From NCBI GenBank assembly GCA_021234155.1, contig JAJEKV010000006.1, positions 11,247,317 to 11,311,316 on the forward strand: a stretch of 64,000 bases of DNA. Reading direction: 5' to 3'. Positions within the stretch are counted from its first letter, which is position 1; every line of letters starts with the position of its first letter. Of this stretch, positions 1 to 41,750 are shown piece after piece. The translations under genes were made by a program, and so were the position numbers. This stretch comes from Isoetes taiwanensis. Taxonomy: Eukaryota > Streptophyta > Lycopodiopsida > Isoetales > Isoetaceae. Under the pieces are notes generated by a model. The model had not been told where the DNA came from and did no database searches. It saw only the letters and a list, made by a program, of their open reading frames with translations.

Positions 1-453
1 CAGGTCGATCCATTTGACGCTCCGGCTACCTATGTTGGACCTGCTAAGGATAAACCCAAGAATGCAGTGGAGATATTTGACCCATACCAAGATGTACAGA
101 AAGGTATGTTTCTTCTTGTAAGACCAGCAGATGCATGTCCTACATGGGTAGCGTATGCGGAAGAGGATCCAATACAAGATCCCACTGCCCCTCATTATAA
201 CGAGGTTTTTGTTTCTTGGTGGGAGCCTGTGGCTAGGAAAGGCACCCCGTACGCTCAACAGTATCGGGACTGCTGGCATAAAAAGTGGAGGCCGAATCCT
301 AATGACAGACCACGTTATCAGCCTCTCAAAACGATAGACTATGCTTGGTTTGTGGAACCGAAGCCATTAATGGTTGTGATACCTCCTATTGTAGGAATCC
401 AGCTGCAAGAATTGCTTGCTAAAGAGGCATCTGATGATGGAGATGAAACTTGA
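1..453 (+). CDS. C-terminal part of a DUF7869-like transposase (element A)
   Basis: The reading frame is open from base 1 to the TGA at 451-453, about 150 codons, and its start lies outside the window. The visible part has a beta-rich stretch with FLLVRP, WVAYAEEDP and VFVSWWEP, then YRDCWHKKW and a final IDYAWFVEPKP, followed by an acidic tail. This W-rich tail resembles the C-terminal region found after the catalytic domain in DUF7869-type plant proteins; that assignment is from memory of the family. The position fits: in element B the transposase also reads toward the small gene. The corresponding tail is not intact in element B, so this copy is the better guide to the C-terminus. Confidence 0.55.
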   Translation, partial: QVDPFDAPATYVGPAKDKPKNAVEIFDPYQDVQKGMFLLVRPADACPTWVAYAEEDPIQDPTAPHYNEVFVSWWEPVARKGTPYAQQYRDCWHKKWRPNPNDRPRYQPLKTIDYAWFVEPKPLMVVIPPIVGIQLQELLAKEASDDGDET

Positions 454-592
454 GTGTTACAGGTACATTAAAGCATCTCACACTTTTTATTATCCATAAC
501 ATCACTACAATAGACTATTTATTATTCATTACGTCTTGCATTTTTCATCTTAACACAAGAGCTCTTACACTATAACATGTTGAACAGGTGAT

Positions 593-833
593 TCATTCAT
601 CTTCGGGATCTGTAGTAGTGATCCCTGATATCTCATAGCTCATGCGCGGGAAGCCAAATCGGATGGATCATCACACTAATTGATTTGAGGCGCGAATCTC
701 GGCCGCCCAAAGCTTTTCTTCGCAGGTAGGGATCAAGAAGAAGATGCCTGTCTAGGCAACCAACAAGATCAGAGTGGCTCATTGAGCACTTGATCGCCTC
801 GATGTGGTTAACTGATGAAGGCGAAAAATCCAT
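593..833 (-). pseudogene. Diverged, frameshifted paralogue of the element's 80-aa protein
   Basis: The minus-strand frame from the ATG at 833 reads MDFSPSSVNHIEAIKCSMSH and aligns along its length with the 80-aa protein at 1209-1451 (shared IKCS/FKCY, LDP, WLP). The open frame stops at 633, but shifting by one base near 645 recovers YEISGITTTDPEDE and a stop at 593-595, which matches the YELNGITSFDVDDE end of the intact copy. It is therefore a one-base frameshift relative to its paralogue. A TATA box (TATAAAA, complement of 870-876) sits about 40 bp upstream, as in the intact copies. Function is unknown. Confidence 0.6.
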
Positions 834-869
834 GAGAGAAGAATGAACTTCAGCCCCGAAGTGAGAAGC

Positions 870-876
870 TTTTATA
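870..876 (-). promoter_or_regulatory. TATA box of the first small gene in element A
   Basis: TATAAAA on the minus strand, about 37 bp upstream of the ATG at 833. It lies in a block (about 860-925) that is similar to the promoter block of the neighbouring copy at 1480-1545, so promoter and gene were duplicated together. Confidence 0.5.
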
Positions 877-1208
877 GTGAAGTAGAATTATTGAGGTGAA
901 TTATTGGGGTTGAATTCGGCGCCATTATTGCTCGTGTATAAGACCGTTGTATAAATACAAGTTTAATACATCTTTCGTATGGATATATATATGCTTTTAA
1001 AACGTGTGCTTGAAAACATGTTTGCTTGACGAATTTAGCTATGATTGAATTCAATGACAGCTTGCAGAATAAGTGGAGGTGGGATAGCACATCGTTACAA
1101 TATACTCAGTTAAGGTACTTGATATTACATCCTTAATCATAATGCTATTACATTCTTACTTAGTTATTAGATACCCATGTCATTATTACATTATTAGCAG
1201 GTGCAGAT

Positions 1209-1451
1209 TTACTCGTCATCAACATCAAAGCTCGTGATGCCATTCAGCTCATAGATCTCCTGGTAAGGAAGCCAGTAAATATAGACTTTAACACGAGTGA
1301 GCTTCCTGCAAGCACTAGCAGGTCCGTCAGCTTTAGATAAGAGCCATGGATCAAGCTTAACGCCATTTCTAGCGCATTCGCCCAGATCGTTGTAGCTCAA
1401 GTAACACTTGAAAGAGCGGATGTGCTCTGGACGAGGCATCGAGGAAGCCAT
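1209..1451 (-). CDS. 80-aa protein of unknown function carried by element A
   Basis: An intact 80-codon frame, MASSMPRPEHIRSFKCYLSY to the acidic end FDVDDE. It differs from the element B copy (24525-24767) by only three visible residues: R/W at the CRKL motif, Y/H and Y/D. No signal peptide, membrane segment or known domain is visible; it has conserved Cys, Trp and Tyr positions and an acidic C-terminus. The start is supported by a shared 5' leader and a TATA box 36-43 bp upstream in both copies. Its 3' end faces the 3' end of the transposase, so the two genes are convergent. Conservation of frame in two dispersed copies suggests it is a real accessory gene of the transposon. Confidence 0.65.
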   Translation of the reverse strand: MASSMPRPEHIRSFKCYLSYNDLGECARNGVKLDPWLLSKADGPASACRKLTRVKVYIYWLPYQEIYELNGITSFDVDDE

Positions 1452-1485
1452 GGAAGATGAATGGCCTCTACCCCCTCGTCAAGCC

Positions 1486-1494
1486 GTTTTTATA
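1486..1494 (-). promoter_or_regulatory. TATA box of the 80-aa gene (element A)
   Basis: TATAAAAAC on the minus strand, followed by a leader of about 35 nt (GAGGGGGTAGAGGCC then CATTCATCTTCC) before the ATG at 1451. The same box, leader and spacing occur at 24482-24524 in element B. Confidence 0.6.
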
Positions 1495-1678
1495 GTGAAG
1501 TAAAATTATTGATGTCAATTATTGGTGTACAATGTAGGGCCATTATTGACCTTATACGAGTGTCATGTACACCTACAAGTATAACACAAAATTTGTATGT
1601 ATATGTGTATGTTAATTACCTCATGTTTGTTGGGCTCGAGAACTAGGTGAAAGTATTCGTGCTTGAGCAAATAAGGTG

Positions 1679-1731
1679 TGCTGAAAATTCTCAAAATTGT
1701 GTTATTTTATCCAATTAATGAAATCATGCTT
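1679..1731. repeat. Terminal inverted repeat region, right end of element A
   Basis: Reads outward as CCAATTAATGAAATCATGCTT. It is the reverse complement of the left end of element B (24245 onward) and similar to that element's right end (33609-33654). It abuts LINE ORF2 sequence at 1732. Confidence 0.7.
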
Positions 1732-21746: not shown

Positions 21747-24244
21747 GGCAAGCAAGAGCAGCTCCTCAGAAGAAGAGAATTCAGAATCATCAGATGATGA
21801 TTCAATTATTTCGGCTGGAAGGGCATTTTTTGCAACAACAGAACCTACAGTTAGCAAACTTGGCAAGTTCACGTCCATATTTCCATATTTGTTTAGTATG
21901 TTGCAAGTCATAGTGACATATGTTGTGTGGAGATGCACAAGTGCCACAGCATCATGTTTTATTGCATGTGACATAGTTCAGGGAGTCTGGTATCTAGACT
22001 CAGGTGCAAGCGACCATATGACCCTGACAAAAGGAGTTGTTTCTGGATTACCAGCCCAATAAGACAGGGAGAAAAGTGAGAATAGGCAAGGTTAAACTGA
22101 ACATTGCAGGAGTTGGGAGTGTAAAGCTCAGTTTGCCACAGGGGTCGTTGCACCTAAAGAATGTCCTTCACGTGTCGGACCTTGAGGCGAACTTGCTTTC
22201 CATATCAAAAATGGATGATGCGGGATTTTATATCAATTTTGGCAATGGCAGATGCATTGTGAAGGACAGGAAGGAGATCATTGCCACAGGGACAAGGGCT
22301 GGCAACATATACCAGCTTAGTTGGACTGCCAACTCTAGCACAACACTGACAGCAGTAGAACTGCAAAAGGCCAAGACATGGCATGAACGATTAAGGCATG
22401 CTAACTACCCTCTCATCAAACAGATGAAGGCACAGGAATTAGTCACTGGTCTGCCAAAGATTTCCAAGCCTCATGCCATTTGTGAAGGGTGTGTATTGGG
22501 TAAGCTCAAACGGAAACCATATAAGAAGGAGAAGACAAAAAGGGCAGCCAAACAGTTGGAACTGTCACACATCGATTTGTGGGGACCAGCCAGTGTAAAA
22601 TCACTTGGAGGATCCAAGTACTTCATGTTGGTGATCGATGACTTTAGTAGGAAGAACTGGGTGTTCTTCCTTAAACACAAATCAGAGGCTTTCGATACTT
22701 TCACCAAATGGAAGAGGGAGGTGGAAAAGCAAATTGAACAGGCGGTCAAAACCATAAGAACTGATCAGGGCAGGGAATTTCTCAATACCAAGTTCAGAAA
22801 TTTCCTACAAGATGCTGGAATCCACCACCAAAAGTCAGTAGTTTCTTCTTGGTATCAGAGCATCAACAAAACGGTGTGGTTGAAAGAAAAAACTGCACCA
22901 TATTGGAATGTGCTCGTGCAATGATCCATGGAAGAGGAATTGATCCAATTTTTTAAGCTGAAGCGGTACACACAGCATGCTACCTGCTAAATCGCATACC
23001 CACTAAAGCCAATCCAAATGTGGGTCCCAAAGAAATGTGGTCAGGCCACAAACCGGATGTGCATGAACTGAAAATCTTCGGCTGCAGGGCGTATGCACAC
23101 TTGAGCCAGCAAGAACGTCCTCGAGGTAAACTCTCTATGAGGGCAGTAGAATGCATGTTTGTCGGCTATAACGAGCACACAAAAAGATATCGTTTGTATG
23201 TTCCACTCACGAAGAAAATCATTGTGAGACGAAGTGTTGAGTTTGATGAACACACGTTCTTCTTTGGGAAAAGGGAGAAATCAAGCAGGCTTGAATGGTA
23301 TGAGGTAAATGCAGATGATGAAGCTAAGGAAGGTGCAGACCAATAGCATGATGTCCCACTAGAAGAAGCTGCTGCTAATGACATGGAAGATATCCCTTCT
23401 GAACCAGAGGAGACTGACCTTGAAGACAATGAGGAGCTCTCTGCTATGCCATTGAGGAGGTCCACAAGGAAGGCAGATCACAGATCGAATGCAAGCTTAT
23501 ATCGAATCTCGATCAGGTAAAACTGCCTCTTACATTGCCTTTCATAGTAATGCACCAGTAGATGAGCCTGCCCACTTTCAAGAGGCAATGGCCAGCATGC
23601 ATCATAAAGAATGGCACAATGCCATGACTGAAGAATATCAGTCCTTATTGGACAATGATACTTGGGACTTGTGCCATCTTCCTGCCAATAGAAAGGCTGT
23701 CGCTTGCAAATGGGTTTACAAGGTAAAATATGATGAACAAGGGAACATTGATAGATTCAAGGCACACTTGGTAGCCAAAGGATACTCATAAGTGCCAGGC
23801 ATAGACTTTCACGAAACTTTTGCTCCGGTTGCACGCCTCACCCCTGTTAGATTGGTCATCGCCTTAGCTGTAGTCCATGGCCTAGACTTATAACAAATGA
23901 ACGTCAAGACTGCCTTCCTTAATGGCAAACTTAAGGAAGCAGTCTACATGAAGCAAGCAGCAGGGTTTGTTCAAAAGGGACAAGAACAGTTAGTGTACAA
24001 GCTTAAAAGGGCCATTTATGGGCTCAGGCAATCATCATGACAGTGGTACCACACGATTGATCAATTCTTTACTCAAATGGGCTTTTCTCGCAGTTAAGCA
24101 GACTGGAACATATACTTTAAGTTTGATGGATCTAAAATGTTGCTTATAGTTCTTTACGTGGATGATCTGATCCTGGCCAGCAACTGTAAGACATTGATGC
24201 AGGACACCAAAGATGCTCTCAACCAACGCTTTCACATGACAGAC
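21747..24244 (+). pseudogene. Copia pol (protease, integrase, reverse transcriptase), broken
   Basis: The protease motif YLDSGASDHM is at 21991-22020. The integrase begins with the pre-integrase zinc region (WHERLRHANYPLIKQM, CEGC) and has DLWGP and TDQGREF carrying the first two catalytic Asp residues, at about 22578 and 22762. The RT begins near 23590 (EWHNAMTEEYQSLLDN, CKWVYKVKYDEQGN) and has the catalytic YVDD at 24154-24165. There are several in-frame stops (for example after VAKGYS, HGLDL and LRQSS) and frameshifts. It is cut by element B at 24244 after the codons for HMTD. Confidence 0.9.
24241..24244. repeat. Target-site duplication of element B, left copy (AGAC)
   Basis: AGAC directly before the terminal AAGCATGA; repeated at 33655-33658 directly after the right terminus. 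Confidence 0.9.
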
Positions 24245-24298
24245 AAGCATGATTTCATTAATTGGATAAAATAACGCAATTTTGAGAATTTTCAGCAC
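24245..24298. repeat. Left terminal inverted repeat of element B
   Basis: AAGCATGATTTCATTAATTG followed by GATAAAATAACGC. Near-identical in element A (1679-1731, inverted) and similar to the complement of 33609-33654. Confidence 0.85.
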
Positions 24299-24481
24299 AC
24301 CTTATTTGCTCAAGCACGAATACTTTCACCTAGTTCTCGAGCCCAACAAACATGAGGTAATTAACATACACATATACATACAAATTTTGTGTTATACTTG
24401 TACGTGTACATGACACTCGTATAAGCTCAATAATGGCCCTACATTGTACACCAATAATTCACATCAATAATTTTACTTCAC

Positions 24482-24489
24482 TATAAAAA
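24482..24489 (+). promoter_or_regulatory. TATA box of the 80-aa gene (element B)
   Basis: TATAAAAA, 36 bp before the ATG at 24525, inside a leader shared with element A. Because two dispersed copies keep the same box and spacing, it is probably the functional core promoter. Confidence 0.6.
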
Positions 24490-24524
24490 CGGCTTCACGA
24501 GGGGGTAGAGGCCATTCATCTTCC

Positions 24525-24767
24525 ATGGCTTCCTCGATGCCTCGTCCAGAGCACATCCGCTCTTTCAAGTGTTACTTGAGCTACAACGATCTGGGCGAAT
24601 GCGCTAGAAATGGCGTTAAGCTTGATCCATGGCTCTTATCTAAAGCTGATGGACCTGCTAGTGCTTGCTGGAAGCTCACTCGCGTTAAAGTCCATATTTA
24701 CTGGCTTCCTGATCAGGAGATCTATGAGCTGAATGGCATCACGAGCTTTGATGTTGATGACGAGTGA
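24525..24767 (+). CDS. 80-aa protein of unknown function carried by element B
   Basis: Intact 80-codon frame, the same protein as at 1209-1451 with three residue differences (W for R before KL, H for Y, D for Y). It starts MASSMPRPEHIRSFKCYLSY and ends GITSFDVDDE. No known domain, signal or membrane segment. It lies about 230 bp inside the left terminus, with its own TATA box, and is convergent with the transposase gene, whose strand begins about 80 bp downstream. Possible roles include a transposition accessory or regulator; nothing in the sequence decides. Confidence 0.65.
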   Translation: MASSMPRPEHIRSFKCYLSYNDLGECARNGVKLDPWLLSKADGPASACWKLTRVKVHIYWLPDQEIYELNGITSFDVDDE

Positions 24768-24847
24768 ATCTGCACCTGCTAATAATGTAATAATGACATG
24801 GATACCTAATAACTAAGTAAGGATGTAATAGCATTCTGATTAAGGAT

Positions 24848-27633
24848 GTAATATCACGTACCTTAACTGAGTATATTGTAACGATGTGCTATCCCACCTC
24901 CACTTATTCTGCAAGCCCAACGTAATGAGATGCTTCAATGTGCTCATCCACAAACACTCTTTCGGGTTCTTCCAATGCACTTTGCCTGGTGCTGGGCTAG
25001 AAATCCTGAATGACAGCTCTACCGGGCTGCACGTCACCAAGCACTCGCAGCAAGGTGGACCAGTAGTCAATAACTTCATTCTTATATGTGTTGGACCATG
25101 ACTTATCGCCAGCTCTAGAAATAGCTGCCCAGTGCATCATGTACTTGGCAATAGAAGCTCTTAATGCACCTATATCTTTCAAGCTCCCATATGGCTGCAG
25201 GACCTTAGATGACCCTCTCGGAATCATAGGTAAACCTTGGGCATCCTCCTTCCACATTCTCGATTTCCCTTTCAGGGGGAGCCACTCCCTATGCCCCGCC
25301 TCATCTTGTAGAACATTAGTGGCCATCCATCCTTCATGCAAAACTTGAAGAGTAGAGGTTCCAAGTGACCACATAAACGGTCCTTCTTATCAGGGATAAA
25401 ACCTTTCACGAATTCCTTCCAATCAGGAACCTCTATCACAAGGTAAGGTGAAGGAGCCTTTGAACTACACTGCCTGAAGAGTTGCATAAGCTCCGGAATA
25501 GTCAATGCATCTGATCTTCTCATTAGAGTAGAGTAGTTTCCAAATAGGGCATCTATGTCATCGTGGGTGTGTCCAACCATCATGAATCCCAGCTGCACTT
25601 GATCAAAGACACCTAACCAAACCAAGTATGACAAGTAAGAGAAAAGATATCTATTCTTATTCTGACCTGAGCAATTATCTAGCTGCAAGTAAAGCCTCCT
25701 AGGCAACTTGTTTGCTACCATGGGGCCTTTGATAGGAGGCATAAAATCATTTCTACTGCCATTCATCATTTTTGTCCTAAGGTTATCTGTGTTTAAAATT
25801 CTTTGCACACCGGTTTGCTTTCAGGACGATCTGTATCTCTCAAATGGCCCCAATTATCCTCAGATTTATTCTCCAGTGTCTTCAAGGTATGATTCAAGGA
25901 TCCCACATGAAAATTAGAATCATCAGGCCAGAGGTCCAGTGAGAAGTGGCCCAAGGCACCTATACCATGGCCGTGCATGAAAGCACCTGTAACACTGACC
26001 TTCAGTCGTTCACCCCTCCATACAGACTTTGCTAGCTTCTCTAGGCGAGGGACCATGGTCTTATTCTGATCCATCTTATCATGTATAATGGTTAAAGCGT
26101 GCTTTCGGGGAGATCTATGCGACAAAGCTCTCGGGACCGATAAAGGCTCTCGCATGAAATCTGGGCGTCATATGCGATTTTTTCTCTATTGCAAGTACCC
26201 TTCTTTCGTTTGGATCTCTGGTCTTATCAAGCTTTTCCTTTATGACAATACAGGTGTTACACTTGGAAAATGCTATCCTCTTAGCTATTGCTACCTCTGA
26301 ATGATTCTCTTTCCAAGCAGACAGAAATGACGAAGGAGAAATATGCTTGCCTGTCATCTCTGTAACGGTAATATCTACTTCTTGGTGTATATCCTTCTTA
26401 GTCAAGACTGAAGGAAGCCTCTTAACATTTTGTCTGCTACCCTCGCTCGTAATTTTCGAGCGGTGTGGCATCGTCTCTGCGTTTTCATCTATGAACATGG
26501 ATATAATAAAGCATTGCCGACCAAAGTATGAGATCTTGGCTTCTTAGACCCAGTATTTCCGTGCTCAGCAATTCTGTGGCCGTCATTGAAGAGCTTCTTC
26601 CACTTGTAAAAAGTGGAAATGGGAATGCCATAGGCTTTATGCCATGCTTTCACGCACACCTGTTTGTTATTCAACATCAGTTTGCGGACTACACCATTTT
26701 CAGAGCAAAGATCTAGCATGTTATATGCAAAAGTTGTGTGCTCAGGGACTTCATGTTCAAAGAAAAGGTTCTCATGCAAGCTATCTCACGGGATGTAAAA
26801 TTTGCCTGGCATCGTTTCATGCAAAGACGGTGATGACTGAAGTCTAGAATAGCCTCAGCACTAGTTTTCTTTCACATTTAGTGCGTGTTGGGCGTGTTCG
26901 GGTCTCCGATTGACCATCTTTGTAAGGTCTCTTTTTGGTGATGCCAATTTCGGGTCTAATGGAGTAAGGTTCATTCTCCACATCCTTCTCCTTCACCGCA
27001 ACCACAAGAGTAGAAACTGGAATGTTATCAACGAGCACGAGGGCTATGGGCCATCTCACAAGGTCATGCAGTTGGGGCATTTTACGCACACGGGCCTGGC
27101 GGTAAGATAGAGATCTTTTCGGGCATTGGAAAAATGCTCATGATAGTAGCGACTATCGAGCCTTCCCCTAACTTCACGTCGGACCACGACATGGTTTGGA
27201 TCGGCAAAACGATAACACCATAGGCATAAGCCATGTGGCAAAGCATTCATGCATGAGTGCACGCCTTCTCAACTAACTCATCTCTAGAAAGCCCTTGCAC
27301 ATGATTCGTCTCATTACTGGCTAACCCCTCATTCCCCTCGTCCTGCCAGTCTATGCGTTTTATCTGACCTGGTGGGGTGCAAGCTTCCTCCTGTCTATCA
27401 AGTTGAGCAGCAATGTCCTTCTTGTACCACAACACAAAAGTCCCCACAGCTTCACCCATTTTTTCTATTTCCATTTCGGGAATTGGTAGCGATGAATTGT
27501 CCATCCGGAACATTCACAATTGAAACAACAACCATACCCTCGGGACGATCGAATTGTGATGGCGCCGAAATTGTGGACTCTTCCTTCGCCACCTTTTTCC
27601 CCCCCAGATAATCTGGTGAATTACATCAGCCAT
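24848..27633 (-). pseudogene. DUF7869-like transposase gene of element B, interrupted
   Basis: Reads from the ATG at 27633 (MADVIHQIIWGGK). Successive frames give an N-terminal region, a Cys pair CVKCPNC (about 27085), a segment with VCVKAWHKAYGIPISTFYKW (about 26640), FSKCNTC (about 26265), IHDKMDQNKT (about 26080), LQLDNCSGQNKNRYLF (about 25680), GHTHDDIDALFG (about 25574) and a PLLFKFCMKDGWPLMFYK block (about 25335). Conserved D, DNC and GHTHDDID blocks like these occur in DUF7869-type proteins and suggest an RNase-H-like (DDE/DDD) nuclease core; this is family knowledge plus inference. Frame changes between blocks may be introns or decay. The C-terminal W-rich tail seen in element A (1-453) is not intact here. 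Confidence 0.6.
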
Positions 27634-29020
27634 CCTGCAAACAAGAGGTCGTGAATAGCGCGGCCGCGATCCTCGTAAGCAAAAAGCACTGTGATCATAA
27701 ACCACTACAAAAAATAGCAACTGAAAAATAAAAAATGGTCAGGACTTTCGCCACCGCGATCTTATCGAGCATGGGTAAGAACGCAGCGGTCGGCGCTTTT
27801 GCAAGCATTCACACTAGTTTGTTTTCGATAAGAACTCGTGCAAATCACATTTCGAGGCTAGCTAGTGGTTTCAACTCAAAGTTATCGATAGCTGGGAGTT
27901 CTTTGGTCAATAGCAAGTGTAGATGGTTGAAGGTATCGCGACCGCGATCTCGTAGAGCATCAAAGTTAAACGATTGACTTACAGAATAAAGCATTACTCA
28001 TACCTCACAGAATACGGTGGCGTCAACGTCAACTTGTAGCCGAGGACCCGTCAGAAGCTGCAGTGTCATAAAAACAGTGTTTTGTTTCATCCACATGGAG
28101 AAAGAAAGCATATACTTGAAACACGTTTACATTGTATAATAAACACACCAGAGTGCACAGGTTTGCTTAGAACATCTATTTTTGCATAGTTGCAACAAAG
28201 TATCAGGAGGTATCTTATCAATCCATGCAATACATAGTGAAGTTAGTGCAGAGACTCGGAGGTTGTAGTTATAATTGAAATTCAGTGCAACATAAACGTT
28301 GAGTTCACTTCAGTGAGGGATATGCATCAGAATAGGCCTTTTACCTTGCCCGAAACCCTGAATTCGATGCAGTTGAAGAATTCCGAATGTGTAGTGGCGG
28401 ATTGCAAGCGGATTATCAGCGCCCTCGTCAGTGCCTTCAATGGATGCGAATTCGCGGCAAATCCTTGCCGAACTTGGCCCGGCTTAATTTTAGACTCGGC
28501 GCCTCGAAGATCTTGCAAAACAATGAAATTTGAATTGGCTTTTCCCGCTTTCTCGAATTGGTTTGTTCTCGAATTCAAATTTTACAGTCACTGTCCGTTC
28601 GTAAACCGGTTTTTTGTGGGGCATTTATGGCTGCATACTGTGTCAGGTCCGAAATTACGGCCCAAAATTGAACGCGGACGTCCAAGTTGATAAAGACCTT
28701 TTGTACGGATTACTTGCCTTTTTGGACGGGTATATTCGCACGACCGCATTTATGTCAGGGAATAAATACGGCCGGCCGGCCGGTAATTATTACTTCCGGC
28801 GTACGACGCCATTATGGCTGGCACGTTTTTTCACGCGCCATTATGATGGGCGGGCAATTAATTTCCGCGGCCGCGTTCTATAAATTGAAACTCAGAACAT
28901 TTAAAAACAAATTTCAACTCCGCGATTTCTTTCAGCGCCTAGCGCCTTCGCCCTCCGAGCGCCTTCTCGAGCCTCTCCAAAAGGACTCGAATTTCGTACT
29001 CAGCCAGCGCCCGCGATCCC
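27634..29020. other. Divergent inter-gene region of element B with palindromes and a promoter
   Basis: No supported gene. It separates the divergent transposase and ParB/methyltransferase-like genes. It holds copies of the GC-rich palindrome (about 27657-27670, 27747-27760, 27935-27948). A GC-rich section from 28440 to 28900 includes a GGCCGGCCGGCC run (28770s). A TATA-like TATAAATT lies near 28878, about 140 bp before the ATG at 29021. The short frames in this region are not convincing. Confidence 0.5.
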
Positions 29021-29048
29021 ATGGCACCTAAGGACTCCCTCAGAGAAG

Positions 29049-29496
29049 GTATTTTCTAACATTTCAGCTCAGCAACATCGCGGCCGCGATCTTGCCTACT
29101 AGAACTTCTATTGTTTTCATAAGTATAGCTGCTCAGCAAGATCGCGGCCGCGGTCTTGCTTGCTAGGTTTTGTAATTTCTTGATAGCGGTCTTCATAAGT
29201 GTAGCTGCTCAACAAGATCGCGGCCGCGGTCTTGCTGAGCATAGATTTTCTTTCTTGCGATGTTCATGAGTACTAGTGTAGTATGTCATTAGGATCGCGA
29301 CCGCGATGTTCATGAGCAGTGAAATTGTTTTCTTGCCGTGCTTAAGTGCTACACAACATCGCGGCCGCGATAGTGTGGAGTGCTATTTTAGCTGCTTGGC
29401 AGGATCGCGGTCGCGTTTCTCTACAGTAGTTTATACCTTTTCGTTGCACCACATTATGCAGCCTACCAGGCACTCACCACAGGCTTTTGTTTACAG
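29049..29496 (+). other. First intron of the ParB/methyltransferase-like gene, with six palindromes
   Basis: Donor GAAG|GTATTT and acceptor TTTACAG|CACTTG; removal joins exons 1 and 2 in frame. It contains six copies of the GC-rich palindrome at 29077, 29141, 29217, 29294, 29358 and 29404, spaced 46-77 bp apart, several flanked by CAGCAAG on the left and CTTGCTGAG on the right. Confidence 0.6.
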
Positions 29497-31046
29497 CACT
29501 TGCTCTCTTCCGAGGACCGGATGTCGAGCCCGTCCGTATTATAACCCCTTCCAATGAAAGGAAATGGTGTATTGAGATTGCACAGGCTATACCGCACATT
29601 AAGGGTGATCGCAGAAAGGACCTGTGCTTGTTTCTGCGGACTGGAAAAAAACCTGAGGACGTTGAACAAGTTGGCATAGTGGTGGCAATGTGGGAAGGCA
29701 CGAAGAACAATGTGCAAGATGCTATCATATGCAGCATTGAGGACACACAAGCATTGCAGTTCCTGGAGTACATTTTGAAATGGCGCAATTATGACCCGTC
29801 TCTGATGACAGCCAGCAAAATGAACAAGCCAGCCACAGGGAAAAACGTCCCCACGTCAGCTAAGGGTTATGGCTGGTTGTTGCCATCCTATGAATCTCTC
29901 TCTTTGTCAGGAATAAAGGGAAACAGAGACATATTGCTCGGGTTCTCGGCATGCAGAAATGGTTTGTCTACAGACAAGAAGCCTCCGAGCTGTGCCTTGA
30001 AAGCAGTTCGGGACGAGAAGATGCCCTCCGTGATGGACACCAATTGTCTAAGAGCCGTGGCCAAGAAAAAGAGTGTGAAGCCTATTGCTACTTTGGGAGA
30101 GACATCAGCACCAAAAGAGGTTGTTCAAGAACCACAATCCACGATAAACCCCTCCGGTATTGTTAACCCTACTCTTCCTCTTGCTATGAAGGCCCCAGAT
30201 AGCACTACATCTGGTGGATTTATTCCAAAAAAACTCCCTCCTTTCAGAATTAGCCTTAGGAATCTGACACCTACTGAAGATAGCCCGCAGCCCAGCAGTT
30301 CTCAAACCCCCCCCTCAGTTACGGATGCCTCCTCTAGACTAGCATTGACATGGCCCCACGCACCTGCCATTCCAGTCGAGTTGAAGTTCAATCCCGAAGA
30401 GGAACGCAAGATGGCAGAGCAAACCACCCAGAAGCTTGAACAGTTCAAAAGGTTCTACCCCTTAGGGGTTAATTGGTTTACAAAGATTTCTATTTTTGAT
30501 TGTGAACCTGCACCAGCAAACTTGACACGGGAGAATGCGATCAAATGACCATGTTCAAACTCGGTTAAAAGCTTCAAGACATACAGAAGTGAGAGGTCCA
30601 CACACCCGACGCGTCGTTCCGTTTGACCCTATTACTAAGTAACTAATTCTTTATCTTTTGGACACTCGTTATGTAGATTTGTACTGACGGTTGTCTATCT
30701 TTCAGGAGGAGGATGACATGGAGCAATCCAGAAGATTTGAAGGGCAAGAAATTTTATATTATTTCTGGCAACCACAGTATTTGCGCTGCACAACTTCTTT
30801 GTTCGGTCGTCGGCGAGTTGGAGCAGCAACGAGAATTTGCCAAAGTATATGCTAGAAAAAGATCGAGGGTGCTCAACGGAAATCTTACAGACAAGGAATA
30901 TATAGAGTTGATGCAACGAAGTAATTGCAAACACCGTGTACAGAGAGCCACTGATTGAAAAACTGCAACAACTTCGTCATCAGCACAAGGCTTATGGCTG
31001 CCCTCCACAAGGACCTATAGGGACAGCTAAAACTTCAGCTTGGAAG

Positions 31047-31115
31047 GTATTTATTTGTTTTCTACTCGCCAACTTCGCGGCCGCGATCTTGATGACCTTG
31101 AAATTGCTTCTGCAG
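31047..31115 (+). other. 69-bp intron containing one palindrome copy
   Basis: GGAAG|GTATTTATTT ... CTTCTGCAG|GATTTCC. The length is divisible by three, so the frame reads through, but the translation of the insert (LLANFAAAIL) breaks the charged surroundings. It contains TTCGCGGCCGCGAT at 31074-31087, as does intron 1. Confidence 0.6.
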
Positions 31116-33067
31116 GATTTCCATGAAATTGCAACGACCACCTTGAAAGTGCAGGAGCTTAAGGATGAAAAACAATTCATTTTTATGGATGAGAAGGTTT
31201 TCAAGAAGTTAATGGAAGTTGCCGGTATGTGGGTGAGTCGTAAACTCAGTGACGACCATGGTGACTTTCCAGACAAGCCATCGAAAGACTTCTTTAACAA
31301 GACCTGGCTCCGGTTGCTACGAGGTATGTCGAATGCAGAGGTGTCACAGCTGCTCGATGAGATTATAGAAGGCAAGACCTATTTGAAGGTGCAGTCAGGT
31401 TATAGCGGGAGATTTGATTGCAAACAATGGGCAACTGACATCAGAACCCTCACTTTTATGAGGCGAGAAATTTTATCTTATGCCACAAATTTGCTGCAAA
31501 GGGATTTCTATAGCTGGGACGAATTGCTTCAGGCTTTTCCTGATTTGGTGAGCGAGAGAATCTTGGATATATCGGATCTCGATCTGAGAATACGTGAAGG
31601 CTAACTATAACAAGGATCATACACTTGGTAACCTACCTGTAGCCTTTCTGGAGCCAGTCAGGAATATTCTAAAGCCAGAGGAGGCTAGAAAAAGAAAGGA
31701 AAAGAGAAATATTGTCATAGCAGTGACAAAGGATGGCATCCCTACTTCCTCCCAAGTGTCAGAGAATGCGACATTGATATTTATTGACATCCGAGGGATA
31801 AACAAGGTATGGGATTGCAAGAAATACACAGATCTATTTACAAGGATATCTACCATGACGAATGCCAAAGTTTATCACTTGGTCATTATCATGCGCTCAG
31901 TGAATTTGCCCAATTGCTTGTACAGTCAGAAGCAAATTCAGGGCGGTGGCTACCTATCTTTAGGTTCTTATGAAGAAATGGGATGGGAGAGCAAACGAAG
32001 GGTGAAAGAACATCAGTACTTTATTAGTCATATGTGCATTAACAGAGTGATGTTAGGTGTAGCACCTTTGTGCAACCAGAGCTGGAGCTTCACCTATCTC
32101 CACTGCGGCAAGGCTCCTAAGTCAACACCATTGCCTCCAATGCCACCGGCGGTGTAATGAGGATGCCGGCGAGAAGATAAAAAGAAATATCGGACTCTTT
32201 TACAGGCAAACCAAGATTCAAATGGGCGGCAATGGAAGGAGATCTTGTATTGAAATGCCCATTTGAAAACCTCGTATGCCTACCATATTGTTGAGCGGTG
32301 GTGCCGATCGATGGTTGCGTTCGGATTTCTTTTCTATTTGGGGCCGGCTTCGTGTTGCTCTTATGCAAGGCAAAAAGAGCGTGGCTTTCGAAAGTTCAGG
32401 TAAAGTGTGCCGTTTCCTGAGGGCGTTCTTTGAAACGCTTGATAAAATGGCCAATCCAAGTGCGGATGGGTTTGAAGAAGAGGAGAAAGCAGAGAATGTT
32501 GAGCCTGATCCAGGGATGCCCAACATCAGTATCACCCAAAACACAGATCTATCAAAGTTGGATTCCATTTTGGAAAACCTCGATGCTAAGTCCTACGAAG
32601 AGAGAATGCAAGAAACAAAACGCTTGCTTGAAGAGACGGAAAAAGGTATAGAAGCCCTGGAGCCCACTTTTCAAAAATTGAGTGCACTTAATGAGAAGCT
32701 TGATGGGTACATGCCTTTCTTGACAGGCGAACATAAGTTTGAATACGTGGGCGTAGAACACATGGAAACAGACCACCAGCACATGGAAGCAGACCAACAA
32801 AGACATGGAGGCCCGACCAAGATGAGGTTCTTGGGACACGGGGAGCATCGGTACACAAAGAAGAAGCGAAGCTCTCTCATCCACGAGAATGCTCTTGAAT
32901 CGGAGAAGGAACTTATAGGCGGGAGGCTGATCACGGTGGACAAAGTGAAAAATGGGAGCCCGATTCACATCTGCGGCAAGATCATAAACGCCATGGGTGT
33001 TGAGATTCCGAGGAGGTCACGTGTTATTCGAGGAGATGGACACAACACAAGCTATGGAATTGGGTAG

Positions 33068-33608
33068 AGAGCATGTCACCCGCATGGCCAATGAAATGGG
33101 TGTGATACCTGATCAAGTATCTGAAACACAATCAGAATAATTATTGCCTTCAATCAGAATAATTATGTTGTATATTACTTCCTTCAATGGAAATTTTGGT
33201 TTCGGGAATTTTGGTTTTGTCTTTACCCATATCTTTTACCATATGTTTAATGCTAAAAATAATCGCGACCGCGATCCTCTGTAGCAATTATATGGCTTTA
33301 AATACTAAATTTTTGTGATATGCTTGCTCCTCGGTACCTTCTTTTAACACAATGCTCTCATATGGTTTTAATAAAAGGCTCATTATTTTGTCACCTTTCA
33401 GCTGCGAAACATCGCGTTCGCGCTTCTTGCGAGAAGTTTGAACACTCCCTCCTACTACGTTCTATTCGCGGTGAACCTTTGCATTAGCTGTAAAAATTAT
33501 ATTTCCGAATAACACTGAAGCATTTGCAGAATTTGTGCAAAAAAACGCCAACTTTTACTCAATTGGTAGTAGTTTTTGCACTATATGGCTACCCGCTAAC
33601 CTATTTCA
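33068..33608. other. 3' flank of the cargo gene, right interior of element B
   Basis: AT-rich, no supported gene; holds palindrome copies at 33262-33275 and 33411-33424 before the right terminus. Confidence 0.5.
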
Positions 33609-33654
33609 TGCTAAACGAGAATTCCAAATTTCTCTAATTAATGAATTCATGCTT
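33609..33654. repeat. Right terminal inverted repeat of element B
   Basis: Ends AATTAATGAATTCATGCTT, the imperfect inverse of the left terminus; followed by the AGAC duplication. Confidence 0.8.
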
Positions 33655-33853
33655 AGACCTTGGGACACTAAGGTACCTTCTTGGAATATAGGTATGCAGG
33701 GATCCAACCACTTGTAGCATCACGTTGCATCAAACCAGTCCCTACTCCACAAATGTAACATGGACTCAAGTAAGTCTGTTACAACCCCTGCTACCATTCA
33801 ATGTGTGAACTCTTTAAAAGGCATAAATTCTGAAATGCAAGCCATCCATCCAC
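33655..33853 (+). pseudogene. Copia reverse transcriptase, continuation after element B
   Basis: From 33659 the frame reads LGTLRYLLGI, a stop, then VCRDPTTCSITLHQT; after a one-base shift it reads LLHKCNMDSSKSVTTPATIQ, standard late-RT copia sequence. It ends near 33853, where the duplicated host segment starts. It has one in-frame stop and one frameshift. Confidence 0.85.
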
Positions 33854-35830: not shown

Positions 35831-36966
35831 CACCTCGTCACTTTCGGAGGATTATTTCATTTGCAGTTAGAGAGGAGAAAGTACCGGGCTATGGCTATGG
35901 TCGCCGGAATGGGAGCAGAAGGGTTAGGGCAAATGTACAGGTCCCGGAATAGAGTTCTCCTGCCCATACTTGTGTTTCTTAATTGTGTATAATTGTGTTT
36001 CTTTAACAAAGTAGTTAGGTCAGGTTAGATCTCAATCGTTGGATCAAGTCCTATAAGATTAGATCTCAACCGTTGGATAAGCTGTGTTACCAGCCAATAA
36101 CAAAGTGTTGTCAAATTTTCTTTCTAAAAAAAAAAAAGCACAATAGAAATTGAAAACAAACTAGGATGTATAGGGGAATGCCCACCGGGAGCACTTTCTG
36201 GTGTGGTTCGGCGGAGTCGGGAGCGGGTAGCCACACCGCAAAAAACTACTCGTTGAGCTTAGAAGGTTGTTAACTACAAAACTCATAGTCATCGCCGCAA
36301 TCAAAGAACAAAATGCTCTATTTTTTACCTTTGGAAGCTGTGGCTATGGTGGCTTTATCTTCTGCGGCGCCGAATATAGATCCCCATAAGCCCCTTCCCA
36401 TCCTCTTTTTCGTCAGATTTTTACCTGCAATAGGCGGTTCTATCAGGTTCAATTCTATAAGCATGTTTCCTATCCTCCTTCCACTCTTCCTAATTCTTGC
36501 ACAAGCTAAGCTATAGATATGGCCATCAGACAAAAGAACCATCAATGTGCATACGTGGTTAGTCATAAGTTAAGTTAAGTGATACCTTTTGAAATTTTAA
36601 AGTTTAACTATTGGATTATAAACCATTGAATTGTCAAATATAAACAATAAATACCTGAAAATGTACAAATACATCCCGGACTCACTGGTTTGCAAAACCG
36701 AGGCTTCACTGATGAGCTCCAGTCAAACCAATGCAAGCAAAAAGACTTCACGAATCACTTGTACAGAAAGCCATGACTTTTATTCAAAAAGTAAAGACTT
36801 GCTTCAAGTTGACATGGAATATGATGATGTGGCACTCCAATTAGGTGACATGTCATGCCAAGTAAGGAAGGCCGACCAACAATGAAGTACAACCCTGATT
36901 TTTCATGGGGTGGTGTGGCAATGTTTGGCGACATGGCCAGCAGCCCGGGGTCACCTCAGCAGCCTG

Positions 36967-38490
36967 GGGAAAGCTCAAACATGCCAAGGTGGCTCAAACA
37001 TGCCACCTAGGCTCCAACATGCCAAGGTGGCCCCAACATGCCACCTAGGCTTTAACATGCCAAGGCGGCTCAAACATGCCACCTAAGCTCCAACATGCCA
37101 AGGTGGCCCCAACATGCCACCTAGGCTCCAACATGCCACCTAGGCTCAAACATGCCAAGGTGGCTCAAACATTCCACCTAGGCTCCAACATGCCACCTAG
37201 GCTCCAACATGCCAAGGTGGCCCCAACATGCCACCTAGGCTCCAACATGCCAAGGTGGCCCCAACATGCCACCTAGGCTCCAACATGCCAAGGTGACTCA
37301 AACATGCCACCTAAGCTCCAACATGCCAAGGTGGCCCCAACATGCCACCTAGGCTCCAACATGCCAAGGTGGCTCAAACATGCCACCTAGGCTCCAACAT
37401 GCCACCTAGGCTCCAACATGCCAAGGTGGCTCAAACATTCCACCTAGGCTCCAACATGCCAAGGTGGCCCCAACATGCCACCTAGGCTCCAACATGCCAA
37501 GGTGGTTCGAACATGCCACCTAGGCTCCAACATGCCAAGGTGGCTCAAACATGCCACCTAGGCTCCAACATGCCACCTAGGCTCAAACATGCCAAGGTGC
37601 CTCCAACATGCCACCTAGGCTCCAACATGACAAGGTGGCTCAAACATGCCACCTAGGCTCCAACATTCTCAAACATGCCAAGGTGGCTCAAACATGCCAC
37701 CTAGGCTCCAACATGCCACTATAGGCTCAAACATGCCAAGGTGGCTCCAACATGCCACCTAGGCTCCAACATGCCACCTAGGCTCAAACATGTTTGAGCC
37801 TAGGTGGCATGTTGAAGGTTCGTGGCAACGCTTTGAGCCACCTTGGCATGTTGGAGCCCCGTGGTGGCATGTTTGAGCCACCTGGCATGTTTAATCCTAA
37901 GTGGGAGTCTTGGTGGCATCTTGGAGCGGCGTGGCATGTTTGAGCCACCTTGGCATGTTTGAGCCTAGGTGGCATGTTGGAGCGTGTGTGGCATGTTTGA
38001 GCCACCTTGGCATGTTGGAGCCACCATGGCATGTTTGATCCTAGGTGGCATGTTGGAGCCTAGGTGGCATGTTGGAGCCTAGGTGGCATCTTGGTGTGCG
38101 CGTGGCATGTTTGAGCCACCTTGGCATGTTCGAGCCTAGGTGGCATGTTGGTGCCGAGGTGGCATGTTTGAGCCACCTTGGCACGTTGGAGCCTAGGTGG
38201 CATGTTGGAGCGCGCGTGGCATGTTGGAGCCTAGGTGGCATGTTTGAGCCACCTTGGAATGATGGAGCCTAGGGGTGGCATATTGGAGCCCACGTGGCAT
38301 GTTTGAGCCGCCTTGGCATGTTGGAGCCCGCGTGGCATGTTTGAGCCACTTTGGCATGTTTGAGCCACCTTGGCATTTTGGAGCCCACGTGGCATGTTTG
38401 ATCCACCTTGGCATGTTGGAGCCTAGGTGGCATGTTGGAGCTTTCGCATGGCATGTTTGAACCACCTTGGCATGTTTGAGATACCTTGGC
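36967..38490. repeat. Fold-back minisatellite array, first block
   Basis: Alternating 19-bp units CATGCCACCTAGGCTCCAA (type A) and CATGCCAAGGTGGCTCAAA (type B). From 36967 to about 37790 they read on the plus strand; from 37791 to about 38490 the same units read inverted. The switch is a perfect palindrome, GGCTCAAACA|TGTTTGAGCC, at 37781-37800. The core of A (CCACCTAGG) is also one base from the inverse of the core of B (CCACCTTGG), so neighbouring units can pair as well. All overlapping frames on both strands are by-products of the repeat. Confidence 0.95.
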
Positions 38491-39908
38491 ATGTTGAAAA
38501 ACTCGAGATAACATCATTTGAGTGTGCAGATCTTGTTTTGTCTCAGGGAAGTGCACTAACCAATTTTTCTTCCAACTTTGAACCCGATTTACTCAGACAT
38601 CCCAGATCCAAATTGAGCCAAGTTTTCTTCCACATGTCACCACAATGTTTCTCTTGTTGTTCCTCCAAAAATCATTTGAAAAAGATAAGCACAACTCGAG
38701 ATATTCAGATCTAAGTGCAACTACCTCATTTTGCTTTAGGGATCCTAATGTAGTTGATGCCTTTTTGCATAATTTTGCATAAAGATTGGTTGCCTTAAGC
38801 AACCTGGAGGTTCTAACACACCATATCCATATCACAGCATGTGTCCTAAGTGCAAAAGACCAAAATTCGACCTCCAAAATGTAAACTCTTCAACAACCTA
38901 GCAACTCATAGGGTTTACGTTTTGGAGGCCGAAACGTGGTTCTTTTCATGGATAACTTGGTGGACCATCTCTAAACATGAATGCAGAGTCATGCCAACTG
39001 AAGAAATGGGGTTCGGATCTATCAGTCATCCAGAATATCCCAAACAATGTCTTCCTAATGCAAAAGTGGCTCTTGACTTCTAATTGCCATAGGGGGAGAA
39101 GAATAGATGCAAACCCCATTTCTTCAGTTCATATTGCTTCGCGTCTTCAACTGCAACCTCCCGACCATGTCCCAAGTGCAAACCACCAGAACTCGACCTC
39201 CAGAACGTAAACCCTTCAATAACCTAGCATCACACAGGGTTTACGTTTCGGAGGCCATATCCTAGTCAGATTCGACCAGGATCTTACACAATGTCATCGC
39301 GTAGAGGGAGGGTGTTGACGCCAGAAGACGGACCCTTAAAACCTTCTGAAAGCAGCTCGACCTAAAAGTCAATTGGCCTAGGAGGTGGCTGCGGAATACT
39401 GCCATGTAGAGGGTTCGTGTTTCTTTCGTTGCAAAAATGACCGTGTAACTTGGTCCCTAGGGTAATTTCACCATTCCGAACGACATGGCGAAGTCGAATC
39501 TCCATTCCGGAGCCTTTGTACTGCCCGAACGACAAAACACTTGGGTTTCTACACGGTCAACCGCAGGACGCTTCGTGGTTTGGTAAGTTCTCCCGGACCG
39601 ATCTTGGATTTTTTTGAACCCGCCGGCGGGTTACTTTGAAATGGGATTCAACGGTTGGATAGCGAAACCGAGGTCTGGGAGGGGGGGCATTGGCATTTTC
39701 CCTCCCGGAGGAGCGCTGGCAAAAAAGGCTGCCTCGACAACCTTTCTGATGTTCGTCTCATGGGGTCTGGCCTCTCCCCTCTGGTGAGGAAGCCGCGCAA
39801 AGTCCTGGTCCGGGTTTCGACTTGGGAAGGATGTCGGGCTTTTAAGTTCTTCAAGATCCCTCTATTCTATCCCTTGCCAAACTCGTCTACCAAAAATTCC
39901 ACTTGGAG
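38491..39908. other. Spacer between the two minisatellite blocks, with a nested fold-back
   Basis: No supported gene. At 38845-38935 and 39165-39253 lies a repeated block of about 90 bp, each copy itself a hairpin (CGACCTCCAAAATGTAAAC ... GTTTACGTTTTGGAGGCCG). Between them AACTGAAGAAATGGGGTT (about 38997) pairs with AACCCCATTTCTTCAGTT (about 39111), so 38860-39255 can fold as one larger inverted repeat. 39290-39908 has no recognisable content. Confidence 0.6.
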
Positions 39909-41750
39909 TGCCTAGGTGGCATGGTTGAGCTGTTTGAGCCACCTTGGCATGTTTGAGCCTAGGTGGCATGTTGAAGCCTAGTGGCATGTTGCAGCCACCT
40001 TGGCATGTTTGTGGCATGTTGGAGCCTAGGTGGCATGTTGGAGCCACCTTGGCATGTTTGAGCCACCTTGGAGCCTAGGTGGCATGTTTGAGCCACCTTG
40101 TCATGTGGGAGCCTAGGTGGCATGTTGGAGCCCACGTGGCATGTTTGAGCCACCTTGGCATGTTTGAGCCTAGGTGGCATGTTGGAGCCTCGGTGGCATG
40201 TTTGAGCCTATAGCGGCATGTTTGTGGCATGTTGGAGCCTAGGGTGACATGTTGGAGCCACTTTGGCATGTTTCATGCCCACCTTGGAGCCCTAGGTGGC
40301 ATGTTTGAGCCACCTTGTCATGTTGGAGCCTAGGTGGCATGTTGGAGCCACCTTGTCATGTTGGAGCCTAGGTGGCATGTTGGAGCCACCTTGGCATGTT
40401 GGAGCCTAGGGTGGCATGTTGGAGCCCATGTGGCATGTTTGAGCCACCTTGGCATGTTTGAGCCTAGGGTGGCATGTTGGAGCCTAGGTGGCATGTTTGA
40501 GCCACCTTGGCATGTTTGAGCCCATTGGAGCCTAGGTGGTATGTTTGAGCCACCTTGGCATGTTTGAGAATGTTGGAGCCTAGGTGGCATGTTTGAGCCA
40601 CCTTGTCATGTTGGAGCCTAGGTGGCATGTATGAGCCCAGGGTGGCATGTTTGAGCCACCTTGGCATGTTTGAGCCTATATGTGGCATGTTGGAACCTAG
40701 GTGGCATGTTTGAGCCACCTTGGCATGTTGGAGCCTAGGTGGCATGTTGGAGCCCTAGGGGCGTGGCATGTTTGAGCCACCTTGGCATGTTTGAGCCACC
40801 TTGGCATGTTGGAGCCACCTTGGCATGTTGGAGCCTAGGGTGGCATGTTGGAGCCTAGGTGGCATGTTGAAGCACACGTGGCATGTTTGAGCCACCTTGG
40901 CATGTTTGAGCCTAGGTGGCATGTATGATTGGAGCCTAGAAGGCATGTTGGAGCCCACGTGCCATGTTTGAGCCACCTTGGCATGTTGGAGCCTAGGTGG
41001 CCTTGGAGCCCGTGGCATGTTTGAGCCACCTTGGCATGTTGGAGCCTAGGTGGCATGTTTGAGTCACCTTGGCATGTTGGAGCCTTGATGGTGGCATGTT
41101 TTGAGCCACCTTGGCATGTTTGAGCCTAGGTGGCATGTTGGAGCCTAGGTGGCATGTTTGAGCCACCTTGGTACGTTGGAGCCTAGGTGGCATGTTGGAG
41201 CCCATTGGCATGTTTGAGCCACCTTGGCATGTTGGAGCCTAGGTGGCATGTTGGAGCCCGTGTACCTTTGCTGCCTAGGTGGCATATTGGAGCCGTGGAG
41301 ATGTTTGAGCCACCTTGGCATGTTAGAGCCTAGGGTGGCATTTTTGAGCCCCGCCTTTGGCATGTTGGAGCCAGGTGGCATGTTGTGAGCCACCTTGGCA
41401 TGTTGGAGCCCGTGTGGCATGTTTGAGATACCTTGGCATGTTTGAGCCCGGGTGGCATGTTGGAGCCTAGGTGACATGTTTGAGCCACCTTGGCATGTTG
41501 GAGCCTAGGTGGCATGTTGGAGCCCACGTGGCATGTTTGAGCCACCTTGGCATGTTGGAGCCCACATGGCATGTTTGAGCCACCTTGTATTGGAGCCTAG
41601 TTGGCATGTTGGAGCCCACGTGGCGTGATTGAGCCACCTTGGCATGTTGGAGCCTAGGTGGCATATTGGAGTCCACGTGGCATGTTTGAGCCACCTTGGC
41701 ATGTTAGAGCCACCTTGGCATGTTATAGTAGGTGTGGCATGTTTGAGTCC
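39909..41750. repeat. Fold-back minisatellite array, second block
   Basis: The same A and B units as at 36967-38490, here all inverted (TTTGAGCCACCTTGGCATG and TTGGAGCCTAGGTGGCATG), about 1.84 kb, with many truncated or variant units. 41760-41960 is unique, followed by the right subterminal zone of the CACTA element. Confidence 0.95.

Follow-up and report, generated by a model that had tools for sequence, protein, structure and literature searches.

The lycopod Isoetes taiwanensis harbours a family of DNA transposons that carry, alongside a DUF7869 transposase, a large passenger gene whose product appears by eye to be a ParB domain joined to a DNA methyltransferase, and whose noncoding DNA holds arrays of a defined palindrome. 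We examined this family through one copy, which occupies positions 24245-33654 (9410 bp) of a 64,000-nucleotide stretch of contig JAJEKV010000006.1 (assembly GCA_021234155.1), hereafter called the window. The family is old and well delimited and has probably been active recently as well. Its passenger gene is under purifying selection at saturated synonymous divergence, and we judge, with a probability of roughly 0.6, that the passenger protein binds the palindromes.

The original prediction, made from the sequence alone, described a precisely delimited 9.4-kb cargo transposon, with terminal inverted repeats (TIRs) and AGAC on both sides, whose excision restores the interrupted reading of a copia element. 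Direct reading bears out these boundaries, which are as follows.

24241..24244, no strand: target site duplication AGAC, left (direct reading)
24245..24263, plus strand: left TIR, AAGCATGATTTCATTAATT (direct reading and genome copies)
33636..33654, minus strand: right TIR, AATTAATGAATTCATGCTT (direct reading and genome copies)
33655..33658, no strand: target site duplication AGAC, right (direct reading)

The two TIRs differ by one mismatch over 19 bp, and with a single AGAC retained the joined flanks read MTDLGTLRYLLGI. Further copies were sought in the I. taiwanensis assembly (1,658,258,908 bases in 1,110 contigs), described in print as 1658.30 Mb in 204 scaffolds and 909 contigs derived from nanopore reads (PMC8566536); many of the single-base frame breaks mentioned below may therefore be assembly errors. 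With a 201-bp left-end query, the best 40 of 1062 first-look candidates were scored and all showed 99-100% identity, while the best 40 of 937 candidates for the right end showed 97-100%. Eleven pairs of left and right ends from these two lists were matched by contig, strand and distance, to which the window copy and a copy on contig C1056 were added. Perfect 4-bp duplications were read in the flanks of all 13 paired copies, the window copy among them (TAAA, TTGA, AAAA, ATTG, TTAA, ATTT, ATTA, ATAA, TGTT, ATAA, TTAC, ATAA and AGAC), and two diverged copies, E48 (C1067:983072-993317) and E50 (C1105:3839939-3850223), add AATT and TAAG. The total is thus 15/15 copies examined at both ends, and in 14 of these three or four bases of the duplication are A or T, AGAC being the exception. 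The family is a cut-and-paste DNA transposon. Its near-identical ends suggest recent movement, and exchange of left ends among lineages could contribute to that identity.

Eight copies were read from end to end: the window copy, the C1056 copy (L009, ~6.4 kb), F1 (11007 bp), F2 (10891 bp), F3 (11624 bp), F4 (11015 bp), E48 (10246 bp) and E50 (10285 bp). In every one of them an 80-amino-acid (80-aa) gene, the DUF7869 transposase gene and the passenger gene lie, at least in part, between the inverted repeats, and frame breaks occur in many of the copies. Neither differing ends nor a passenger gene that was absent or outside the TIRs occurred in the copies read, and we hold it as virtually certain that the gene set belongs to the transposon, as the cargo description had it. 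What needs correction is the length. The ends of the window copy are exact, but ~1.1-1.6 kb (the size varies with the copy compared) has been deleted at ~24915, taking with it the C-terminal end of the transposase and additional 80-aa gene copies, and the remaining genes are frameshifted. The C1056 copy lacks the intergenic stretch and parts of both flanking genes. In F4 (L026 with L032), which is otherwise complete, a ~5-kb inversion runs from the transposase into the passenger gene and splits the latter, unless this is an assembly error instead of a real rearrangement. The left arms of full copies (F1, L022, L025, E48, E50) contain tandem paralogues of the 80-aa gene that are ~40-50% alike and of near-equal length. 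The genes of the window copy are arranged as follows.

24525..24767, plus strand: 80-aa gene, first paralogue (full copies carry further paralogues)
24914..24916, no strand: internal deletion junction, with the ~1.1-1.6 kb retained in other copies (copy comparison)
24915..27634, minus strand: DUF7869 transposase gene, C-terminally truncated and frame-broken (Pfam PF25273; upstream limit estimated by eye)
29021..29048, plus strand: passenger gene, exon 1 (matches intact copies L047 and L050)
29497..30638, plus strand: exon 2, N-terminal domain, linker and beginning of the ParB-like domain (sequence reading, copy comparison)
30706..31046, plus strand: exon 3, remainder of the ParB-like domain, IISGNHSICAAQ (sequence reading, copy comparison)
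31116..33140, plus strand: exon 4, helical region, methyltransferase-like region and C-terminus, with several frameshifts in the window copy (copy comparison)

The passenger gene comprises four exons and ~1,160 codons on the strand opposite to the transposase. The genome was searched with the exon-4 protein and the best 150 of 3676 candidates were scored; six loci were fetched for intact genes. Two of these, L047 and L050, are intact across the four exons, with GT-AG introns and no repair required (1171 and 1157 aa), and L048 is open from exon 2 onward (1154 codons), its exon 1 not being identified. The other three (L049, L051, L052) have breaks or missing parts and were dropped from the comparison of nonsynonymous (dN) and synonymous (dS) divergence. 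Between intact genes, pairwise dN is 0.21-0.34 and synonymous sites are saturated, with a proportion of synonymous differences (pS) of 0.81-0.85, which rules out recent acquisition of the gene. A viral or prokaryotic origin was likewise rejected, as pattern-limited scans of viral and prokaryote contigs turned up nothing related to the passenger protein. A pattern-limited scan of viral contigs found no transposase relatives either, tblastn in phages found nothing for a piece of the transposase or for L048 exon 4, and in plasmids L048 exon 3 gave only three insignificant matches (best E 0.4).

The gene had been called ParB/methyltransferase-like, with introns. The introns are borne out, and the domain names, given by eye, received no confirmation from profiles. 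Read in this way, the protein has a ParB-like stretch (RSNDHVQTLVKSF to IISGNHSICAAQLL), then a helical region, then a methyltransferase-like part with a Rossmann-like strand ENATLIFIDIRG at the place of motif IV and a motif-I-like GCVLDFFSAGTASRVALMQGK, and it ends in a C-terminal tail. With its domains assigned by eye only, the gene agrees in place, strand and size with the class of ParB-methyltransferase accessory genes of transposons.

The palindrome ATCGCGGCCGCGAT sits within a 36-bp bipartite site. At three or fewer mismatches, the window element contains 13 occurrences and the remainder of the window a single one; 30 shuffles averaged 0.23 and never exceeded 2. None of the 13 lies in coding sequence and 7 fall in passenger-gene introns; the left 3.4 kb of this copy has none. 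Their positions are listed here.

27635..29020, no strand: noncoding stretch between the divergent genes, with 4 palindromes (27657, 27747, 27935, 28864)
29049..29496, plus strand: intron 1, holding six palindromes in an array (29077, 29141, 29217, 29294, 29358, 29404)
31047..31115, plus strand: intron 3, with one palindrome (31074) whose place is kept in diverged copies
33262..33424, no strand: two palindromes near the right end (33262, 33411)

Other copies carry 4-12 palindromes, the diverged ones 5-9 over 9.95 kb each. One of the nine in E48 falls in the stop-to-stop transposase frame, upstream of the likely start, and one of the seven in E50, a weak three-mismatch match, falls in exon 2. 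Genome-wide there are 961 exact occurrences of ATCGCGGCCGCGAT vs 0 for the reversed control. Twenty of the 25 contigs listed as holding palindromes were sampled (C79, C81, C279 and C346 were omitted as known gene carriers, and C300 was also omitted), and 18 of the 20 lie in family-like DNA. The intron-3 site was followed through 20 copies of 62-72% identity, hand-picked from the 150 best exon-4 candidates. It ends ~22 nt before exon 4 with three or fewer mismatches in 18/20 and with at most one in 11/20, the exceptions being L080, short of one base, and L081, with 5 mismatches. Measured to the first codon of the query, which starts one codon into the exon, the distance is 24-26 nt. The 97 distinct sites compared, chosen for having no more than one mismatch, yield the consensus TGcTCAacAaG-ATCGCGGCCGCGAT-CtTgtTGAgCA; its four CpGs are kept in 98-100% and the central GC bases in 82% each. 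With the sites masked, CpG observed/expected is 0.95 in element noncoding DNA, against 0.58 in coding sequence and 0.54 in the rest of the window, and it is higher within 150 bp of a site than beyond 400 bp in 6/7 copies.

The window transposase, predicted as DUF7869-like, matches Pfam PF25273 (DUF7869) at 3.4e-38 (131.6 bits against a cut-off of 26), and its frame is near-continuous in E48. The predicted structure is an RNase H-like DDE/D fold with Mos1 as its best match, and on that model the protein is a DDE/D RNase H-like transposase. Its superfamily can still fairly be called unclear, as it was originally. The AT-rich 4-bp duplications and short TIRs fit Sola, going by the values given for Sola2 (PMC3627910). 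Two other placements were rejected. PiggyBac and Kolobok elements make a fixed TTAA duplication, which was seen in only 1/15 copies, and Tc1/mariner elements duplicate a 2-bp TA, where the duplications here are 4 bp.

To judge from the ends, the duplications and the fold model, the DUF7869 transposase would employ the chemistry of an RNase H-like DDE/D core to move the element and leave 4-bp duplications. The passenger gene would encode a DNA-binding accessory protein whose ParB-like part, probably with the adjoining helices, would recognise the 14/36-bp palindromes in the promoter region, the introns and the right subterminal DNA, and the protein may then coat or bridge the element. Its methyltransferase-like part lacks the catalytic motif IV usual in such enzymes, so a binding or blocking role is likelier than methylation. 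The likeliest benefit would be that the element's own regulatory DNA is kept accessible, as VANC proteins do on VANDAL transposons, and the next likeliest would be help with synapsis of the ends. That the use is anti-silencing and not another we consider possible, at less than even odds. Unlikely, in our estimation, is the fuller scheme in which an algal-type ParB-methyltransferase has become a clamp without catalytic activity, which loads at parS-like palindromes of the element's own making, spreads over its regulatory DNA and excludes host CG methylation, which would amount to a eukaryotic self-targeted ParB system for anti-silencing.

Several results weigh against this account or the assignments on which it builds. 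The ParB_N profile (PF02195) gave 0 matches in the genome vs matches in 10/14 control genomes, a harsh test because intron 2 splits the domain. Searches of Pfam, PHROGs, NCBIfam and PDB profiles with the passenger protein yielded nothing credible, and none of 7156 candidates reached E <= 0.001 when 5.8 billion proteins were searched with residues 190-704 of a stitched window protein. A PDB profile search gave no match for query A1, and for query A2 unrelated weak rows only. In DNA N6/N4 methyltransferases (beta order) catalytic motif IV is DPPY; here the position reads D[IMF]R[GS] (DIRG, DIRS, DMRS, DFRG) in all six loci compared. Foldseek with the transposase model returned zero matches at E <= 0.001. 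Two of the 20 sampled palindromes (L062, L064) lie in DNA without similarity to the family, one of seven copies (L014) has no CpG excess near its sites, and location in the promoter could by itself account for the elevated CpG of that region.

The palindromes may instead be binding sites or enhancers for the transposase, leaving the passenger protein another task. Subterminal motifs serve Spm TnpA in such a manner, and sites between the genes and near the right end would suit this role; the site-free left arm of the window copy, and the location of 7/13 palindromes in passenger introns, far from both ends, make it an improbable one. The accessory protein might also be an active DNA methyltransferase that marks the element's own DNA at its CpG-rich palindromes; marking of their own transposon has been suggested for the ParB-methyltransferase proteins of algal elements (PMC12477816). 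A motif-I-like DFFSAGTASRVALMQGK is kept here, and DIVVFPP stands close to the place of motif IV in L025, a copy with a broken frame, so that some lineages may have a proline pair. Against such activity stand the motif IV residues of the six loci and the 98-100% conservation of the site CpGs, without the decay typical of methylated CpG, and we regard it as distinctly improbable.

RNA or DNA hairpins, acting for example in the splicing of short introns, would fit intron 3, which measures only 64-65 nt in intact copies and has its site in the centre. They would not account for the further sites upstream of both genes and past the passenger stop codon, and we give this idea very little weight. 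The introns of the passenger gene, and the lack of relatives in the 5.8-billion-protein search, might suggest a gene of the host or a chance nested insertion. Yet the gene has the same place and orientation in five of six full-extent copies, two of which carry versions whose synonymous divergence from the others is saturated or nearly so; in the sixth, the F4 inversion splits it. With the full copies and purifying selection, we treat this explanation as refuted. Binding of the palindromes by the passenger protein is the reading we retain.

The copies have a mosaic history. In the left 1.75 kb the aligned parts of L025 and F1 are 92-99% alike, and further in the figure is 41-75%; for E50 and F1 the aligned parts are 81-96% alike up to ~3.5 kb and 43-78% after that. 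Most of the copies profiled against F1 (L025, L014, E48, E50) had been selected because their left ends were nearly identical, a choice biased towards shared left arms. The transposase cores of E50 and the window differ by a dS of 0.31, and the passenger genes of E50 and L047 (the latter close to the window copy) are at synonymous saturation. Left arms and transposases have been exchanged among deep lineages, probably as a result of recombination, or of template switching while gaps were repaired. Among Sola2 elements, chimeras in which one end is near-identical and the other differs have been described (PMC3627910).

Part of another copy was predicted at the start of the window and is indeed there.

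1..1731, minus strand: inverted second copy, comprising the left arm and the C-terminal part of the transposase (reading frame 1-453, plus strand), 97% identity over 678 bp

Its left end is at 1731, its transposase C-terminus matches E48 and E50, and no right end was found in the 5.2 kb upstream of the window. Locus L011 has two left ends in like orientation, separated by ~6.5 kb, and nothing in the 10 kb retrieved there matched the interior. Elsewhere in the window, 36857-41700 holds large direct and inverted arrays of a 19-bp repeat (GGCATGTTTGAGCC...). Near-identical direct repeats (33852-34151/51269-51568, 46678-47662/52021-53009 and 42265-42654/51640-52025) are probably the long terminal repeats of nested retrotransposons, and a direct duplication (58533-59721/61309-62474) shows 89-96% identity at a distance of ~2.77 kb.

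Bacterial ParB-parS systems have palindromic sites near the gene. The resemblance here lies in palindromes near the passenger gene and, by eye, a GNH motif where ParB has a similar signature; the differences are that there is no profile match, that the setting is a plant nucleus and not a plasmid, and that ParA was not noticed, no search having been aimed at it. The earlier supposition that no family of this kind had been described does not hold, since ParB-methyltransferase genes have been reported in algal transposons, one of them a Sola-1 element of Ectocarpus (PMC12477816). This element, Sola1-1_Ec32, is the closest published case found: it is likewise a large DNA transposon with its accessory gene opposite the transposase strand, and the accessory protein has ParB-like and DNA-methyltransferase parts in 1104 aa (1157-1171 aa here). 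As far as the accessible part of that description goes, the present family differs in its vascular-plant host, an element half as long, a degenerate motif IV and its palindrome arrays. Sola2 elements with passenger genes are alike in AT-rich 4-bp duplications, TIRs of 12-21 bp, an 888-aa transposase and chimeric elements; their passenger, unlike the one here, is Fanzor1 (PMC3627910).

For mechanism, the closest published case found is VANDAL21. Its protein VANC21 binds short motifs that are densely packed in the introns and upstream DNA of the element, and this binding leads to methylation loss there (PMC5735166). Both are transposon-encoded accessory genes with a motif in their own introns and upstream DNA that is rare elsewhere and turns over in repeats. 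VANC21 is an unrelated protein with a 9-bp non-palindromic motif, and the binding and methylation loss demonstrated for it (PMC5735166) are inferred for the present family. Literature searches on DUF7869 returned nothing, and one on ParB, methyltransferase and transposon returned no plant transposon by title or abstract start, neither result being proof of absence from print. As far as seen in the literature checked, which was available in part, the vascular-plant host, the degenerate motif IV and the candidate target sites are new.

The algal ParB-methyltransferase proteins have been proposed to bind and modify their own transposon, and no target sequence is named in the accessible part of the source (PMC12477816). 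A defined palindrome, abundant against its control and confined in most sampled cases to the family, together with intact genes at saturated divergence, makes that proposal testable. The class appears to be extended to a vascular plant, and the family may join VANC as a second example of a transposon gene that coevolves with arrays of motifs within its introns. If the passenger gene product docks at the palindromes, the suspected self-marking or self-shielding of transposons would become directly testable.

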